From: Muribaculaceae bacterium
GTDB lineage: Bacteria; Pseudomonadota; Alphaproteobacteria; Rs-D84
Reading direction: 5' to 3'
DNA length: 5,904 nucleotides
Assembly (NCBI GenBank): GCA_023665245.1
Contig: JAMPEH010000157.1
Location: 1 to 5,904 of the forward strand
The notes beneath the pieces were generated by a model, which saw nothing but the letters and a program-made list of their open reading frames with translations, did no database searches and was not told the DNA's origin. Every line of letters begins with the position of its first letter. Positions within the stretch are counted from its first letter, which is position 1. The position numbers and the translations under genes are program-made. Below, in pieces: positions 1-5,904 of the stretch.

Positions 1-3000
1 ATACATGGTGGTCCAGAAGGAGCTGTGGCTGCTCTCGTGGCAGTCGCAGCAGTCGCCGTGGTTGTACCAGTTATCTTTGTTGACGCTGGTGGCGATACCC
101 AGCTGGCCCATCATATTGGAGCCCCAGGCCCACACCGTGCCGTCAGCCTTCAAAGCCAAGGTGTGGTTCGCGCCGGAGACCACCATGGGCGTCGCCACGC
201 CCGTAGCGGGATAGACCTCCACCTGCATGACGCTCTCGGCCACGCACTGGTGCTTGTAGCCGCCCGCGGCGATGATCTCGGCCTCGGTCATGGAGCCGTT
301 GTCCACGCTGCCGTCCATGAGCATAGGCTTGCCGGTGTAGTCCCGGACGCCTTCGTAGGCCTTAAAGACTACGCTGGTGGTACCGTACTCATTGCGGTTG
401 GCGGAGCGGATGACCCAGTCGCCATTGGCGTCCTGGTTGAGGACGGCGATGGTGGGATCGGTGATCTCCACGGTGATGAAGTTGAGGCTCACCGCCCGGC
501 GGATCGCGTCCACCTCCGTGATGGTGCGCTGGGTGGTAGCGTTGGTACCGGTGTAAGCGATGTAGTGCTGGGCCCGCAGACGCAGCTGCTGGGTCTCGTT
601 CATGCGGTAGCGCCAAGCGCTGGCCGGGCTGGCCACCGCGTCTTTCACCTCCGCCTTCTCGGCGGCGGTGAGGTTGGTCTCGGTAATGAGGTTACGCACC
701 GGGTTGGTGGCGGCCACAGTGGAGTCCACATCCACCGTCACACCGTTGATCATCTGGCTGGCGGTGGTGTTGAGGGCGCTGGTCTGGTCGATGGCGGTGG
801 TGTCGCCGGCATTCTGGAACACAGCCTGGGAGAGGTACACCGAGCCGTCATAGCGGTAGCCGCTGATGACCGGGGTGTTATTCTCCACGCGGCCCAGGTT
901 CATGGTGCCCAGCTGGAGGTAGCGGTTGTTGCCCCAGCCCCAGACATATCCGTCGTAGCGGATGACCGAAGCGTGGTCGTAGCCCAGGGAGATATACTTC
1001 GCCTCAGTGAGGTTGCCGGTCTTTTCCGTGACCTTATAGCCCTGGGTGTAGGGGGACTGATCCACCTGGTCGCCGGTGGCGACGTGCTCGGCGGTCTCGC
1101 CATCCTGGACGAACTGCGGGAATTCCACATTATGGGCGTTGGCGGCGGAGTAGACCTCGTTCACCACGTTGGACCGGCCATCGCCCAGCTGGCCCAGGTC
1201 GCCCTGGCCCCAGGCGTAGACCTCGGCGTTACGGCGGTACTTCATCACCGTGGCGGGATCGGTGGGATCGGCCTCGGGATCGATGGGCACCAGATTGTTC
1301 TTATCGATACGGTTGATGGCCATGGAGGTGTTCACACCGGCCTCCACAGTCTTGATACCGAACAGGTGGCTCTGGGTATACACCCCGGTGGTCTCGTCGG
1401 CCACAGGCGCGACGTACTGGATCTTGGGCGTAAAGTACTGGCCCGTGGTGGTATACTCATAGCCCAGCACGCTCTTGCCGTCGTCAGAGAGCTTGGCGGG
1501 ACCGTGGGTGAGCTGATAGTTGGCGTTGGAGCCCCAGCCAAAGACCTTCTGCTGTGCGGCCTCCAGCTCGTCACCCGTCAGCGTGCCGTCATAGACCACC
1601 TTAGTCTGGATGGCCAGCATATGGTTATCACCCACAGCGATGGTGGACACGTCGGTGAGGTAGTTGCCCGTACCCTCGCTGTCGCCCTTGAGCACCTGGC
1701 TGGGCGCGCCCAGCGGCTTCTCGTTGCGGTCGATACCCAGCTGGCCCACATCGTTGCGGCCCCAGGTCCACACCGTACCGTCGCCCTTCAGGGCAGCGGA
1801 GGTGTCGCCACCGGCGGAGACCATGACCACGTTGGTCAAATAGCCCTGGCCGCGGTCGCCCAAGACCTTCATGGGCGTGGTGTTGATCTCGGTCCACTTC
1901 TCAGGCAGGGTCTCCCGGCCCAGCTGACCGCCCAGATTCTGACCCTTGGAGTCGGTGCTGTACTTATTGTTGCCCCAGGCCCAGACCTCGCCGGAGTTGC
2001 TCAGCGCCAGGGTGTGCGCCCGGCCGGCGGCGATGGCCATGATGACCACGTCTTTCATCACGCCGTTCTTATCGGGCTCCTGAATGACCACCTGACGGGC
2101 CACCGAGGAGTAGGTGGAGCGGGTACCGCCCACGTTGGTAGTGGTCTCGCTGGTCTCATAGCCCAGCTGGCCATACTGGTTGCGGCCCCAGGTCCACACA
2201 TGGCCGTCCTTATCCAGGGCCACCATATGGTCGTAGCCCGCGGCAATGGTCATGATATTGTCGAGATACTTCCCCGCCTTGAGGGTGGTGGTGCCGGGCT
2301 CATAGGCCATGACCTTCTGCGGGTTGGCCACGCTGGTGGGCGAGTATGCGGTGTCGTAGGGGTAGCTGGGATCGCTCATACCCACATTGACCACCGTATC
2401 CAACGTGGCGCTGAACACCGAGGCGGTACCGCCCACGTTGCCCTGGCCCAGCACGCCCCAGACGTTCTCGCCCCAGACCCAAACGTTGCCCTCAACGGTG
2501 TTCATGGCGGTGAAGTTCTGACCGGCCACGGTCTTAGGCACGATCTCGGTGCTGGAGGGCTGGAGGTCAATATCCAGCGAGAACACGTACTGCCCGGTGA
2601 CCACCATATCGGGCTGGACGGTGGTGTTCACCTTCGTGCCGGTCTGGAGGGCTCCGGCGGAATTATAGAGACCCTTCTGGGTATTCTGGTGGGCGGCGGC
2701 ACTGTCATAGTCGTTGTAGACCTGCCAGTTGTCGGCGGTGTAGCCGATGCTGCCGGAATCGTGGGCGGTAGCCACGCCGGGGCCGTTATTATAGTCCGCG
2801 CCCAGAGTCAGCGTGGTCCGGCCGGTGCGGTAATCGAAGGGATCGGCCATGTAGTCGCGGTTAAAGACCACCGCGTCGTTCTTGCCCTCCACGGCGTTGT
2901 TGTTGACCGTCACATCGGCGATGTCCGGGTTAGACATGACCGCGGCCCACAGCTCGCCCACAGGCTCGTAAGGCGTGGGCGCCTTGCCGTCGTTGTTGAG

Positions 3001-5904
3001 CCACTCCACGCTGTTGAGGTCGTGGACCATGGGATACAGCGAGAAGCCGGAGTTATAGTGCAGGTGGGTATTCTGCTTATAGATGATCAGGTGCTCGTTG
3101 GCGCCCAAGGTGATGAAGGGCGGCACGACCTCGGTGAGGTTCACCGTGCCCGAGCTGGCGCCATAGTAACCCTGGCTGTTGTAGCCAGTCTGGCCCGCCT
3201 TATAGGCGTGGCCGGTGTAGTCGCTCTTCCAGGCCCGGACAGCGGCGCTGGGATCCTTGGTGGTGTCGGTGAGGTAGGTGACCGCCTCCATATAGTCCAC
3301 CATCAGCTCCATGGACTCGCGGGCGCCGATCTGGTCGGGCAGGGTCAGATAGGTGGAGATCAGGTTGGACAGCTGGCCCAGGATCAGGTTGGCGCTATCG
3401 CCGGTGACGCCCATGGCGTTGTTGCCCCAACCCCAGACATAGCCGAACATGCCGTCCAGCACGTCGTCGCTGTCGCCGTTGGTGTTGGTGTAGCCGGTGC
3501 CCGTCTTGGGATAGACGGCACTGGCGATCATGCTATAAGCGCCCGAGGAGATGTGATACACGCCCTCGAGGTAGAGGTAATCGTCGTTATGCTCTTCGTA
3601 GCCGCCCTTGCGGGTCCGCGCGGGCAGATAGCTGCTGGCGGTGGAGCCATTGCCCAGCTGGCCCCGGTCATTGAGGCCGAAGGCGTAGGAGTGGCTGAGC
3701 TCAGACAGGGCGTCATTGGCGCCCTCGGCGGACTCGGGCTTAGCCATGCGGATAGCCCGCATACCCGAGTAGCCGACACCGGCGGAGATCTGCACGATCA
3801 TCTCGCCCGCGTCCGTATCCAGATTCTCCCGCTCGCCGGAGGAAACGCTCTGGCCCTCGGCGTTGACGTACGTGCCGCCCCGCTCCACGTAATTGCCGTT
3901 GATGTCCCGGACAGGCAGGCCCGCGTCGTCGGTCAGCAGCGTGACGATGGTGGCGGCGTGATAGGTCCCCGTCTCGGTGCCGTGGAACACCAGCTTGGGC
4001 AGGGTGTAGATATTATTGGCGGCGGTGGCGCTGACGGCCATACCCATCTCGCCGTACTTGTTCTCGCCCATGGCGTAGAGATTGTTGCCCCGGGTGAGCA
4101 CTAGGGTGTGGTGCTCACCGATGGCGGTCTCCGCCACTTGGTAGAAGAACTCATTGGTGCGGTAGAAGGTCTGCACCAGATCGTCATTGCGGTAGTTCTG
4201 GCCGTAGTTGCGGCTGCTGACCACGCGGGTGGTGGTGCTCTTGGCAAAGTCGGTGTTCTCCGTCAGCTTGTCGGCCCGGACGCCGGTGGGAGCGGAGATA
4301 TAGGAGCGGATGCCCGTGCTGGCGTTGCTGTCGCCCTGATAGCCCACGCCGGTCTGGCCCGAGGTGTTGAGGCCCCAGGCGTACGCCTGACCGTTGGCCC
4401 GGACCGCCATAGCGGTAGAGGTCCCAGCGGAGATAGCGATCACGTGGCCCAGGTAGTTGTAGACCGTCTTATCGGCGTCATTAAAGTCGCTGGCGTAATC
4501 CATGGGACCGGCGGCCATACCGGCGGTGACCCGCTGGGCCACGGCGGAGTAGAGTGTGGCGTTGTCGGCCACATAGAGGTCGCGGCCCAGCTGGTTCTGG
4601 GCGTTGTCACCCCAGGCCCAGACGTAGCCCTTGTCGTCCAGCGCCAGGGAGAACTTATCCCCAGCGGCCACAGCCACGATGAAGGGCACCGTGCCGTTGG
4701 GATAGGCCATCTGCACCCGGACAGGCGCGTTCTGGTTGGCGGTGATGTTGCGCCAGTACCAGTCCCGCTCGGCCAGCGCCTGACCCGCGGCGTTCTTGGT
4801 CACAAGCTCAGCGCCCATGCCCAGCTGCCCGCGGTCATTGAGACCCCAGGCCCACACCGCGCCATAGCGGTCCACCGCCAGGGTGTGGTCGCCACCGGCG
4901 GAGAGATAGACGATGTCGTGGAGATAGCCGAAGGTATCATTGCCCTCGTGGGCCGCCGTTTCGCCCACGGCGGGGATGCTCATATCCAGATGGACGTTCT
5001 CGCCGCAGGTCCAGCAGGCGATGTCGCCCTTGGCCAGCTCGCGGACGTCATACACCCGGCCGCAGTTGTCGCAGACCACGGCGTTGGCCTGCTCCCCGGC
5101 CACCACCTGGACGGGATAGGCCTTGCGCTCCCAAGTGCTCGCGCCGTCGCCCAGCTGGCCAGACGTGCCCTGGCCCCAAGTCCAGACCGTGCCGTCGGGC
5201 CGCAGGACGGAGGCATGGTAATTGCCCGTGGCCACCTGGGACACGGTGAGGGAGTTGTTGGTGGAGCGGTTGGTATCCTTGACGTAGACCACGAACTGAT
5301 AGACGTAGTGATAGGTGGTGTCGTCGCTGGTATCCGCGGCGGTGCCCTTATCATCGGTGTAGTCGTAGGTCAAGATCACCGTGGTAGAGCCAAACTTGTC
5401 GGGATGGACCGCCTCGAAGTAGAGCTGGCCATTATACCAGTAGCTCTTGAGGATGCTCGGGTCCATAATATCCACCGTGAGGGTGGTGGGACTGACAGTG
5501 CTGGCCACCTGGGTCAAGGTGTTGTAGTTCAGGCTGCTCATCACCGTAACGCCGGGTTGGAAGAGGTTGAAGCCGTTATACTCCTTCACCTTCAGCGTGG
5601 CGGGATTGAGGACGTAGGGGTGCTGCTGGTCCACCACGATCCGGCTGGCGTTGGTGTTGGACATGATGGCATCCTTGCTGTCGGTGTTGGTGCCGGTGAA
5701 CTGGACCACCACGCTCTCTTCGCGGATACCCACGCGCAGCGGCGCGGCGCTGTCGATCGCCCGGCCATCGCCCAGCGTGCCCAGGGTGCCCGAGCCGAAA
5801 TCGTACACGAAGCCGTCCTCGCCCAGCACAGTGGAGTGGTTCCAGCCGGACGCGGCCTGGAAGGTGGTGTGGGCGAAGTTATCATAATAGGTGTCATAGG
5901 AATT
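1..5904 (-). CDS. Giant RCC1-repeat beta-propeller protein with Ig-like spacer domains (internal fragment, both ends missing)
   Basis: The minus-strand frame is open for all 1968 codons of the window; I checked every codon for TAA, TAG and TGA. No start or stop falls inside, so the full protein exceeds 1968 residues and 200 kDa. It holds 16 RCC1-type units with cores such as VWAWG, VWTWGRN and GQLG, arranged as 1 + 7 + 7 + 1 and separated by three beta-sandwich-like domains, plus two Cys clusters. RCC1 repeats fold into seven-bladed propellers that serve as binding platforms, for example eukaryotic RCC1 and the secreted Streptomyces beta-lactamase inhibitor BLIP-II. Bacterial proteins of this size with BIG-type spacers are usually secreted or surface-attached; that role is inferred, since no signal peptide or anchor is visible here. 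The partner or ligand cannot be named. There are only eight cysteines. Codon choice strongly avoids TTA, CTA and TCA, which leaves a long false frame on the other strand. Confidence 0.95.
25..60 (-). other. Cys/His cluster (HGDCCDCHESSH) following the first blade of the third propeller
   Basis: Residues 1949-1960 contain three Cys and three His within twelve residues, in the order H-x-x-C-C-x-C-H-x-x-x-H. The Cys codons are at 49, 46 and 40. This composition suggests a metal site or a knot of disulfides, but the spacing fits no zinc-finger class I can name, and more ligands may lie past the window edge. It sits at the equivalent place to the CX2C-X15-CX2C module, in the loop after the first blade's GQLG. 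Confidence 0.5.
79..207 (-). repeat. First RCC1 blade of a further propeller, cut by the left edge
   Basis: This is a near-consensus RCC1 unit: VVSGANHTLALKADGTVWAW then G-SNMMGQLGIATS. It follows spacer 3 in the same way that the first blades of propellers A and B follow spacers 1 and 2. The inferred propeller C would continue beyond position 1. It is one of the best-preserved units in the window. Confidence 0.85.
208..897 (-). other. Linker plus beta-sandwich spacer domain 3
   Basis: The linker (about 640-897) is Ala/Thr/Val-rich with many Asn and Asp residues. It includes a probable helix, NLTAAEKAEVKDAVASPASA, just before the domain core. The core (about 208-640) shows strands QQLRLRAQHYIAYTG and LNFITVEITDPTIAVL, a DANGDW turn, EYGTTSVVFKAYEG, and a closing VMQVEVYPATG that passes directly into an RCC1 blade. 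The D-P-T-I and Y-G-T-T-S-V motifs match spacer 1's D-P-S-I and F-G-S-T-T-V in the same order and similar spacing, so the spacers are probably paralogous. A lone cysteine (YKHQCV, codon 244-246) sits before the last strand. Confidence 0.58.
898..2538 (-). repeat. Complete seven-bladed RCC1 propeller B
   Basis: Seven units lie at about 2425-2538 (VWVWGENVWGVLGQG), 2152-2259 (VWTWGRNQYGQLG), 1912-2049 (VWAWGNNK, then a 12-residue insertion before GQLG), 1726-1833 (VWTWGRNDVGQLG), 1501-1656 (VFGWGSNANYQLT), 1168-1362 (VYAWGQGDLGQLGDG) and 898-1002 (VWGWGNNRYLQLG). Most keep the classic strand AAGxDHxxAL/V before the D-G-x-V-W turn. Units 5 and 6 carry about 16 and 25 extra residues in the same strand loop as units 6 and 7 of propeller A; the unit 6 insert is rich in Asp and Pro. 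No cysteines occur anywhere in this propeller. The architecture again implies a closed seven-bladed binding platform of unknown ligand. Confidence 0.87.
1753..2199 (-). repeat. Identical 21-base DNA segments in two blades of propeller B
   Basis: Bases 1753-1773 and 2179-2199 are identical over 21 positions and encode the same V-W-T-W-G-R-N core in blades 4 and 2 of propeller B. Sequence on either side has diverged. This is the clearest nucleotide-level trace of repeat duplication that I noticed; other blades are related mainly at the protein level. Confidence 0.7.
2539..3393 (-). other. Helical spacer plus beta-sandwich domain 2
   Basis: This RCC1-free stretch of about 285 residues separates the two seven-blade sets. 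Its N-terminal third (about 3119-3393) looks partly helical: it starts with Leu/Ile-spaced sequence ending near ARESMELMVDYMEAVTYL, then turns Gly/Tyr/Ser-rich. The rest resembles spacer 1: FITLGANEHLIIYK, a Tyr-Asn-Ser-Gly-Phe-Ser-Leu turn matching spacer 1's YNGFNL, then MSNPDIADVTV, YRTGRTTLTLGADY and a closing strand QYVFSLDIDL that runs directly into the next RCC1 unit. It is longer than the other spacers because of a polar Asn/Asp/Ala-rich insertion near 2640-2780. The fold assignment is by pattern only. Confidence 0.55.
3394..5238 (-). repeat. Complete seven-bladed RCC1 propeller A
   Basis: Seven RCC1-type units lie at about 5134-5238 (VWTWGQGTSGQLGDG), 4807-4917 (VWAWGLNDRGQLGMG), 4582-4683 (VWAWGDNAQNQLG), 4333-4446 (YAWGLNTSGQTGVG), 4033-4128 (YAMGENKYGEMG), 3640-3798 (YAFGLNDRGQLGNG) and 3394-3561 (VWGWGNNAMGVTG). 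Units 4 to 7 drift from the consensus in the GQLG box or in the W-x-W-G core. Units 6 and 7 carry about 15 and 23 extra residues between the inner hydrophobic strand and the aromatic-x-x-Gly core. Linkers between units vary; those after units 1, 4 and 5 are long, and the first holds the zinc-ribbon-like module. Seven units match the blade number of RCC1 and BLIP-II, so this should fold as one closed propeller. Binding partner unknown. Confidence 0.85.
5002..5079 (-). other. Zinc-ribbon-like CX2C-X15-CX2C module inserted between blades 1 and 2 of propeller A
   Basis: Residues 278-281 read CDNC and residues 297-300 read CWTC, each followed by Gly (C-G-R-V and C-G-E-N). Two CxxC-G knuckles 15 residues apart are the hallmark of a small zinc ribbon or rubredoxin-like site in which four Cys thiolates bind one metal ion. 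The codons are at 5071, 5062, 5014 and 5005. These are four of only eight cysteines in 1968 residues, so the cluster is not random composition. Metal binding is inferred; in an oxidising extracellular setting the same pairs could instead form disulfides. Confidence 0.7.
5239..5757 (-). other. Beta-sandwich spacer domain 1 (Ig/BIG2/cadherin-like)
   Basis: Residues about 50-222 contain no RCC1 signature. The region is rich in alternating Val/Thr/Tyr strands: a Tyr-Asn-Gly-Phe-Asn-Leu turn, then a DIMDPSIL strand, then KFGSTTVILTYDY, an Asp-rich loop (DDKGTAADTSDD) and a final strand YQFVVYVKD that leads straight into the next RCC1 blade. The D-P-S-I and F-G-S-T-T-V motifs recur in the other two spacers (D-P-T-I and Y-G-T-T-S-V in spacer 3). 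This pattern resembles bacterial Ig-like group 2 or cadherin-like folds, but I cannot assign the family from sequence alone. The likely role is structural, holding propellers apart. Confidence 0.6.
5761..5859 (-). repeat. RCC1-type unit, probably the last blade of a propeller beginning beyond the right edge
   Basis: Residues about 16-48 read AASGWNHSTVLGEDGFVYDF followed by G-SGTLGTLGDGR. The GxNH strand, the E-D-G-F-V turn and the G-T-L-G ending match the RCC1 consensus, but the Trp of W-x-W-G is replaced by Tyr/Phe and GQLG by GTLG, so this is a diverged copy. It is followed directly by a beta-sandwich-like domain, the same order seen after the two complete seven-blade sets. I therefore infer that it closes a propeller whose other blades lie past position 5904. 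Confidence 0.75.

Follow-up and report, generated by a model that had tools for sequence, protein, structure and literature searches.

A 5,904-nucleotide contig that is very probably an internal slice of a giant gene for a string of RCC1-type propellers

The contig JAMPEH010000157.1 of assembly GCA_023665245.1 (5,904 nucleotides; the whole stretch is called the window below) is very probably an internal slice of a giant gut-bacterial gene whose product, apparently secreted, exceeds 30,000 amino acids. Comparison of four unbroken giants from related genomes shows that each module consists of a seven-bladed RCC1-type propeller plus an immunoglobulin-like (Ig-like) spacer, and that 34 such modules stand in tandem and in colinear order. 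A sequence-only reading of the window had interpreted it as a string of propellers with Ig-like spacers, which is supported, and its module of seven blades plus one spacer indeed carries on beyond the window, as 34 tandem modules in the orthologous giants. We propose, with a probability of roughly 0.6, that the giant is an apparently secreted surface scaffold in which the propellers act as non-equivalent docking sites.

The minus strand of the window is one unbroken frame of 1,968 codons, open at both ends (1..5904, minus), which matches aa 14,109-15,985 of a 40,694-aa frame in genome G001. In Pfam searches the matches above the cut-off were to RCC1-type families alone, with RCC1 in 13 stretches (E 5.2e-76), RCC1_2 in 10 stretches (E 1.2e-86) and WD40_RLD at E 2.2e-128, each by a wide margin; the search with RCC1 and RCC1_2 profiles that had been proposed thus picks up the repeats, and PF00415, PF13540 and PF25390 mark both the window and aa 1-28,300 of the G001 giant as RCC1 repeat sequence. 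A scan of the window against NCBIfam gave no match. Single blades were located with a hidden Markov model (HMM) built from the window's own blades, followed by a check by eye; two blades were found only by the first, seed model. The 16 blades recognized in this way fall into the 1-7-7-1 grouping that had been claimed. With propeller numbers taken from the G001 modules, and all features on the minus strand, the first is the final blade of propeller 16 (aa 16-48, blade start aa 18; 5761..5859; blade HMM). Propeller 17 (aa 222-861; 3322..5241; Pfam, blade HMM and structure comparison) has seven blades starting at aa 224, 335, 412, 491, 594, ~705 and ~784, and propeller 18 (aa 1125-1685; 850..2532; Pfam and blade HMM) has seven starting at aa 1127, 1220, 1291, 1362, 1422, 1520 and 1638, after which the opening blade of propeller 19 (aa 1907-1938, blade start aa 1908; 91..186; Pfam and blade HMM) is reached. 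Seven blades closed into one ring, as in RCC1-like propellers, were found; UVR8 is a structural match to propeller 17, and 8 of the 11 UVR8 rows extend to aa 954-956, so its closing strands perhaps run to ~aa 956. Groups of seven blades were also detected by the HMM in P0002 (46% identical), P0030 and P0084.

Blade 1 of propeller 17 is followed by a loop that carries, according to the alignment, a zinc-ribbon-like CxxC...CxxC insert (aa 278-300; 5005..5073), present in G001 and G002 and absent from the orthologues of G271, G162, G306 and G016; the protein that bears this propeller loop is apparently secreted. Directly after blade 1 of propeller 19 lies a Cys/His-rich stretch, HGDCCDCHESSHSS (window 1-60, minus), truncated by the contig end. 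The plus strand of the window holds frames of 1,359 aa (25-4104, plus) and 599 aa, and a 20,417-aa antisense frame lies opposite the giant in G001; these long antisense frames are taken to be shadow frames, the gene itself being rich in GC (61-66%).

Between the blade groups lie spacer A (aa 55-222; 5239..5742), made up of the closing strand of propeller 16 and an Ig-like domain with a GFNLF motif, spacer B (aa 862-1124; 2533..3321), an Ig-like region with a GFSLYP motif that is 61% identical in P0002, and spacer C (aa 1686-1906; 187..849), a further Ig-like region. In the spacer alignment such stretches open with a strand of the P-x-R/Q-V/I-G type that closes the preceding propeller, followed by a domain with a GFNL/GFSL motif (spacers A and B) and a strand of the G-x-T-T-V type; the GFNL-type motif is common to many spacers. 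The end strands YQFVVYV (aa 202-208), QYVFSLDI (aa 1105-1112) and VMQVEVY (aa 1892-1898) lie where the sequence-only reading had placed them and do precede the next propeller, although the first blade is entered after 9-15 residues and not within a few. A test set of 14 spacers chosen by hand (spacer A and 13 of the 51 listed) gave Big_2 matches at E <= 0.1 in seven cases, the best at 3.8e-6, and spacer A matched nothing. The segment FITLGANEHLIIY (aa 930-942, spacer B) resembles one half of a further, eighth blade. In the spacer alignment it falls where the Ig-like domain begins; alternatively, it may close propeller 17, as those same UVR8 rows would have it.

The closest relative of the window is P0002 (46% identity over 94%), a fragment from close kin of G002. 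Its metagenome-assembled genome (MAG), NC311, which also holds P0130 and P0167, is labelled Muribaculaceae, yet P0002 is 79-82% identical to G002, a member of the Clostridia, and judged by this similarity the NC311 contig is therefore probably misbinned or mislabelled. When genome contigs were scanned with the spacer-B alignment, two loci were found, on a 245,979-bp contig of G001 (MAG of an uncultured Oscillospiraceae, "Lapin-033") and a 252,867-bp contig of G002 (MAG of an uncultured Clostridia). The window aligns end to end with both, at 62% in the 40,694-aa frame of G001 (G001:C3:40068-162152) and at 54% in the 39,571-aa frame of G002 (G002:C1:92600-211315), the frame coordinates being re-derived from the DNA. 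Over 1,807 aligned codons the window and G001 share 62.6% amino-acid identity and differ most at the third codon position (0.345 against 0.279 and 0.247), a pattern that is consistent with selection at the protein level, by a margin that is modest at this divergence. Between the two giants themselves, 36,437 residues align at 50% identity, with 39-59% in each 1,000-residue bin.

Further giants came from a search with the C-terminal 2,394 residues of the giant against 400 genomes sampled evenly across the family to which G001 belongs. Of its nine matches, seven lie in long frames (40,694, 39,571, 34,110, 32,936, 32,325, 30,029 and 13,329 aa), and the other two are weak, their frames measuring 4,921 and 2,171 aa. 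The unbroken frames span 32,325 to 40,694 aa and occur in gut Oscillospiraceae and their kin; those of G271 and G162 lie on contigs of about genome size (3,230,334 and 3,668,307 bp), the frame of G306 meets a stretch of N close to its end, and G016 and G118 have the gene spread over more than one frame, where it was left unmerged.

In G001 the protein starts with a signal-like N-terminus and a stretch unmatched by Pfam, continues with blades from aa 925 to ~28,368, and ends in a C-terminal part of ~12,300 aa. Similar hydrophobic, signal-like starts were seen by eye in G002, G271, G162 and G306. Above the cut-off, Pfam finds RCC1-type families and one Big_2 over aa 1-28,300; the C-terminal part is mostly without match apart from seven Cadherin-like stretches, and its 12,294 aa show weak self-similarity (21 of 122 stretches). 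The 34 module boundaries in G001 were placed by hand from the blade positions. Our HMM finds 219 blades in G001, 219 in G002, 226 in G271, 230 in G162 and 215 in G306, where 34 x 7 would give 238, while matches to a spacer HMM number 32, 32, 32, 34 and 32. Per module and genome (34 modules in four genomes), exactly seven blades were detected in 88 of 136 cells, six in 33 cells, five in 14 and eight in one. A module size of 750-850 residues fits the window and not the whole giants, whose median pitch is ~738 in G001, ~744 in G002, 634 in G271 and 613 in G162, the last three being approximate as module starts there are BLAST starts. Module 15 (L012; G001 aa ~12,363-12,925) bears an insert of ~560 residues between blades 1 and 2, and fragment P0030 has a long insert at the same site with a match to a BspA-type leucine-rich repeat below the cut-off.

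Module order is strongly conserved. The 34 modules of G001 find their best matches in order in G002, G271 and G162 (33 of 33 steps each), and in G306 the order holds for 31 of 33 steps, with modules 9, 10 and 12 not in colinear position. The frame of G016 is colinear for modules 10-34 and that of G118 for modules 30-34. Order is preserved across giants whose lengths are 8,000 residues apart. In an all-against-all comparison of modules from G001, G002, G271 and G162 (twelve ordered pairs), the best match was the same-number module for all 34 in eight pairs and for 31-33 in the other four. Module numbers in the other three genomes came from matches to G001, which makes this result partly one of construction for pairs involving G001; the module order and the six ordered pairs among G002, G271 and G162 (34, 34, 31, 34, 31 and 34 of 34) are free of this circularity. 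The orthologue beats the best within-genome paralogue in 30 to 34 of the 34 modules, and the duplications are therefore older than these species, with hardly any homogenisation of the modules. In three of four pairs, module identity increases from the N-terminus toward the C-terminus (Spearman rho 0.59, 0.39 and 0.48; fourth pair 0.27, p 0.12), the pairs sharing genomes. Since the gene takes up about 5% of the 2.3-Mb genome of G001 (122 kb) and is conserved module by module, something strong must maintain it.

Downstream of the giant, on the same strand, G001, G002, G271, G162 and G306 carry a frame of 1,470-1,927 aa (gene 2) and then one of 3,071-3,644 aa (gene 3), and in G002, G271, G162 and G306 a further large frame follows gene 3. 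Gene 3 of G001 has SLH, Big_2 and YDG domains above the cut-off. Among 7,991 candidates scored in the protein collection, the family of gene 2 (L029; G001:C3:162452-168232) has 89 entries including gene 2 itself, two of them with a source name; the family shows no confident domain and shares a DVNNDRNINNIDAN-type loop that is conserved close to the C-terminus. By eye its N-terminus resembled a cohesin, which found no support in Pfam, and a sequence search of the PDB returned two rows at chance level. Five of six genomes have a SecA gene at a distance of 9-44 kb from the giant, and G016 has it on another contig; it was rejected as a dedicated secretion ATPase, since it is the sole SecA above the cut-off in each of the six and hence the housekeeping copy. 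A viral origin was also discarded, as a scan of viral contigs with the spacer-B alignment turned up no relative and none of its 60 pattern matches was confirmed.

The proposed scaffold would work as follows. The giant chain would be exported by Sec and held at the cell wall by its C-terminal end together with the SLH-bearing product of gene 3, from where it would reach outward as an extended, beads-on-a-string molecule with the N-terminus outermost. The beads would be separate, non-equivalent docking sites for different proteins or glycans and not filler, a reading suggested by the conservation of modules as themselves instead of homogenisation with their neighbours. The complex of BLIP-II with TEM-1 beta-lactamase, which is among the structural matches, shows an RCC1-like propeller from a bacterium binding another protein. 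A bolder and more doubtful version is a rail of 34 addresses, in which each propeller binds its own partner and the sequence of beads dictates how the 34 partners are arranged outside the cell. If true, this would be one genetically fixed surface molecule of megadalton size; we know of no longer ordered array of beta-propellers in one chain.

One-to-one conservation of modules, with its suggestion of separate jobs, would also fit a secreted polyprotein, cut between modules into single propeller units whose ratio is fixed by one gene. According to the section on giants in PMC13104272, an earlier preprint suggested that proteins of such size may undergo processing into smaller ones. The short distance from the last strand of a spacer to the first blade leaves little linker in the window, however, and no shared cleavage motif was noticed in the aligned spacers, of which no systematic search for one was made, so that we consider such processing unlikely.

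Ig-like repeats are typical of stalks, and a purely mechanical or adhesive fibre, with propellers as sturdy spacers and target binding by the N-terminal tip alone, would expose this tip and so predict the rise in identity toward the C-terminal modules. Filler repeats often homogenise through recombination, which is not what the advantage of orthologues over paralogues indicates, and the module order kept across giants of such different length also argues against it; we regard the fibre as improbable. Even less can be said for an arm of a cellulosome-like complex with cohesin-dockerin pairing. Dockerin_1 does occur above the cut-off in three of six genomes (gene 3 of G002, G162 and G271, gene 4 of G162 and G002), and DxDxNG-like loops were seen by eye in the C-terminal tails of the giants, but the cohesin domains of a cellulosomal scaffoldin (PF00963) were found in none of the six, and Dockerin_1 in just 2 of 18 gene 2 relatives scanned. 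An assembly or annotation artefact can practically be dismissed: short-read contigs of repetitive genes can be wrong, and G016 and G118 carry the gene in more than one frame, but independent genomes agree module by module and two giants lie on contigs above 3 Mb.

Several points weigh against the docking scaffold and the architecture on which it builds. The full gene of the window would have to be deduced from its orthologues, and signal peptides were assigned by eye. In the AF2 model 351 of 1,076 residues reach a confidence of 70 or more, a moderate value, and the closing strands of propeller 17 may lie within spacer B, as most UVR8 rows suggest. The label "Ig-like" is a putative one, drawn from profiles and weak fold matches, and Big_2 exceeds the cut-off just once across the whole G001 giant. 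The maximum blade count across the four genomes is seven in 27 of 34 modules, six in five, five in one and eight in one, so that six modules never attain seven; the lower counts are probably due to degenerate blades overlooked by the HMM, since module 11 lacks one blade in the scan while fragment P0030 shows a degenerate one by eye. Pfam finds no SLH domain or other wall anchor in the G001 giant (three residues at joints between pieces lay outside the scan); SLH is present in neighbouring gene 3 and not, as in an S-layer-type giant, in the same chain. Since cohesin was found in none of the six genomes, an evident partner for the dockerin-like regions of the neighbouring genes is lacking. The distribution is patchy too, with the giant in two of six genomes of G001's genus. 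Gene 2 occurs in 2 of 394 genomes of the order, one being G001, gene 2 of G162 in one of three genomes of its genus, and the giant C-terminus in 3 of 398 genomes of the phylum (G001 and two weak matches in frames below 1,700 aa); these counts are lower bounds, as draft genomes may hide the gene.

Proteins of ~40,000 residues with numerous domains were described from uncultured gut Oscillospiraceae of humans, mice and rabbits (PMC13104272, Microbiome 2026). They agree with the present family in size, family and habitat, and are very probably the same proteins, because G001, a MAG of the Oscillospiraceae, bears the isolate name "Lapin", which suggests rabbit; the G001 giant exceeds 40,000 residues (40,694 aa) and is from gut Oscillospiraceae. 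The section of that paper on giants names no RCC1, propeller count, conserved order or gene cluster, and the main text of PMC11573180 has no RCC1, propeller, Oscillospir or Clostridi. Thus, the existence of such giants is already known, whereas the 34-propeller string, its fixed order and the gene cluster are undescribed in those parts of the literature that the search covered. Proteins so far noted for length are now given a defined architecture, single beads become testable one at a time, and the question is raised of how a chain of 40,000 residues gets translated, exported and folded. Omnitrophota giants, which according to PMC13104272 differ in both length and sequence, resemble the present family in extreme length, and the latter is set apart by its fixed order of 34 modules. 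The Ig-like domains of Big_2, intimin and S-layer proteins are related to the spacers by profile, but the spacers each sit between two propellers and many have the GFNL-type motif. Shorter bacterial proteins with RCC1 and Ig-type or beta-sandwich domains (P0004, P0006 and P0047; 1,693-3,331 aa) combine the same ingredients, and P0004 is not colinear with the giants, as judged from the 14 best rows of the colinearity check. P0084, a 1,824-aa string of propellers in 7-7-7 grouping from a MAG of the Clostridia, lies outside these 14 rows and perhaps belongs to a second giant family. With UVR8, RCC1, the HERC RLDs and BLIP-II the giants have repeat family and fold in common, but chains of UVR8, RCC1 and BLIP-II form one propeller each and HERC2 three, whereas the giants string together 34 with Ig-like domains between them.
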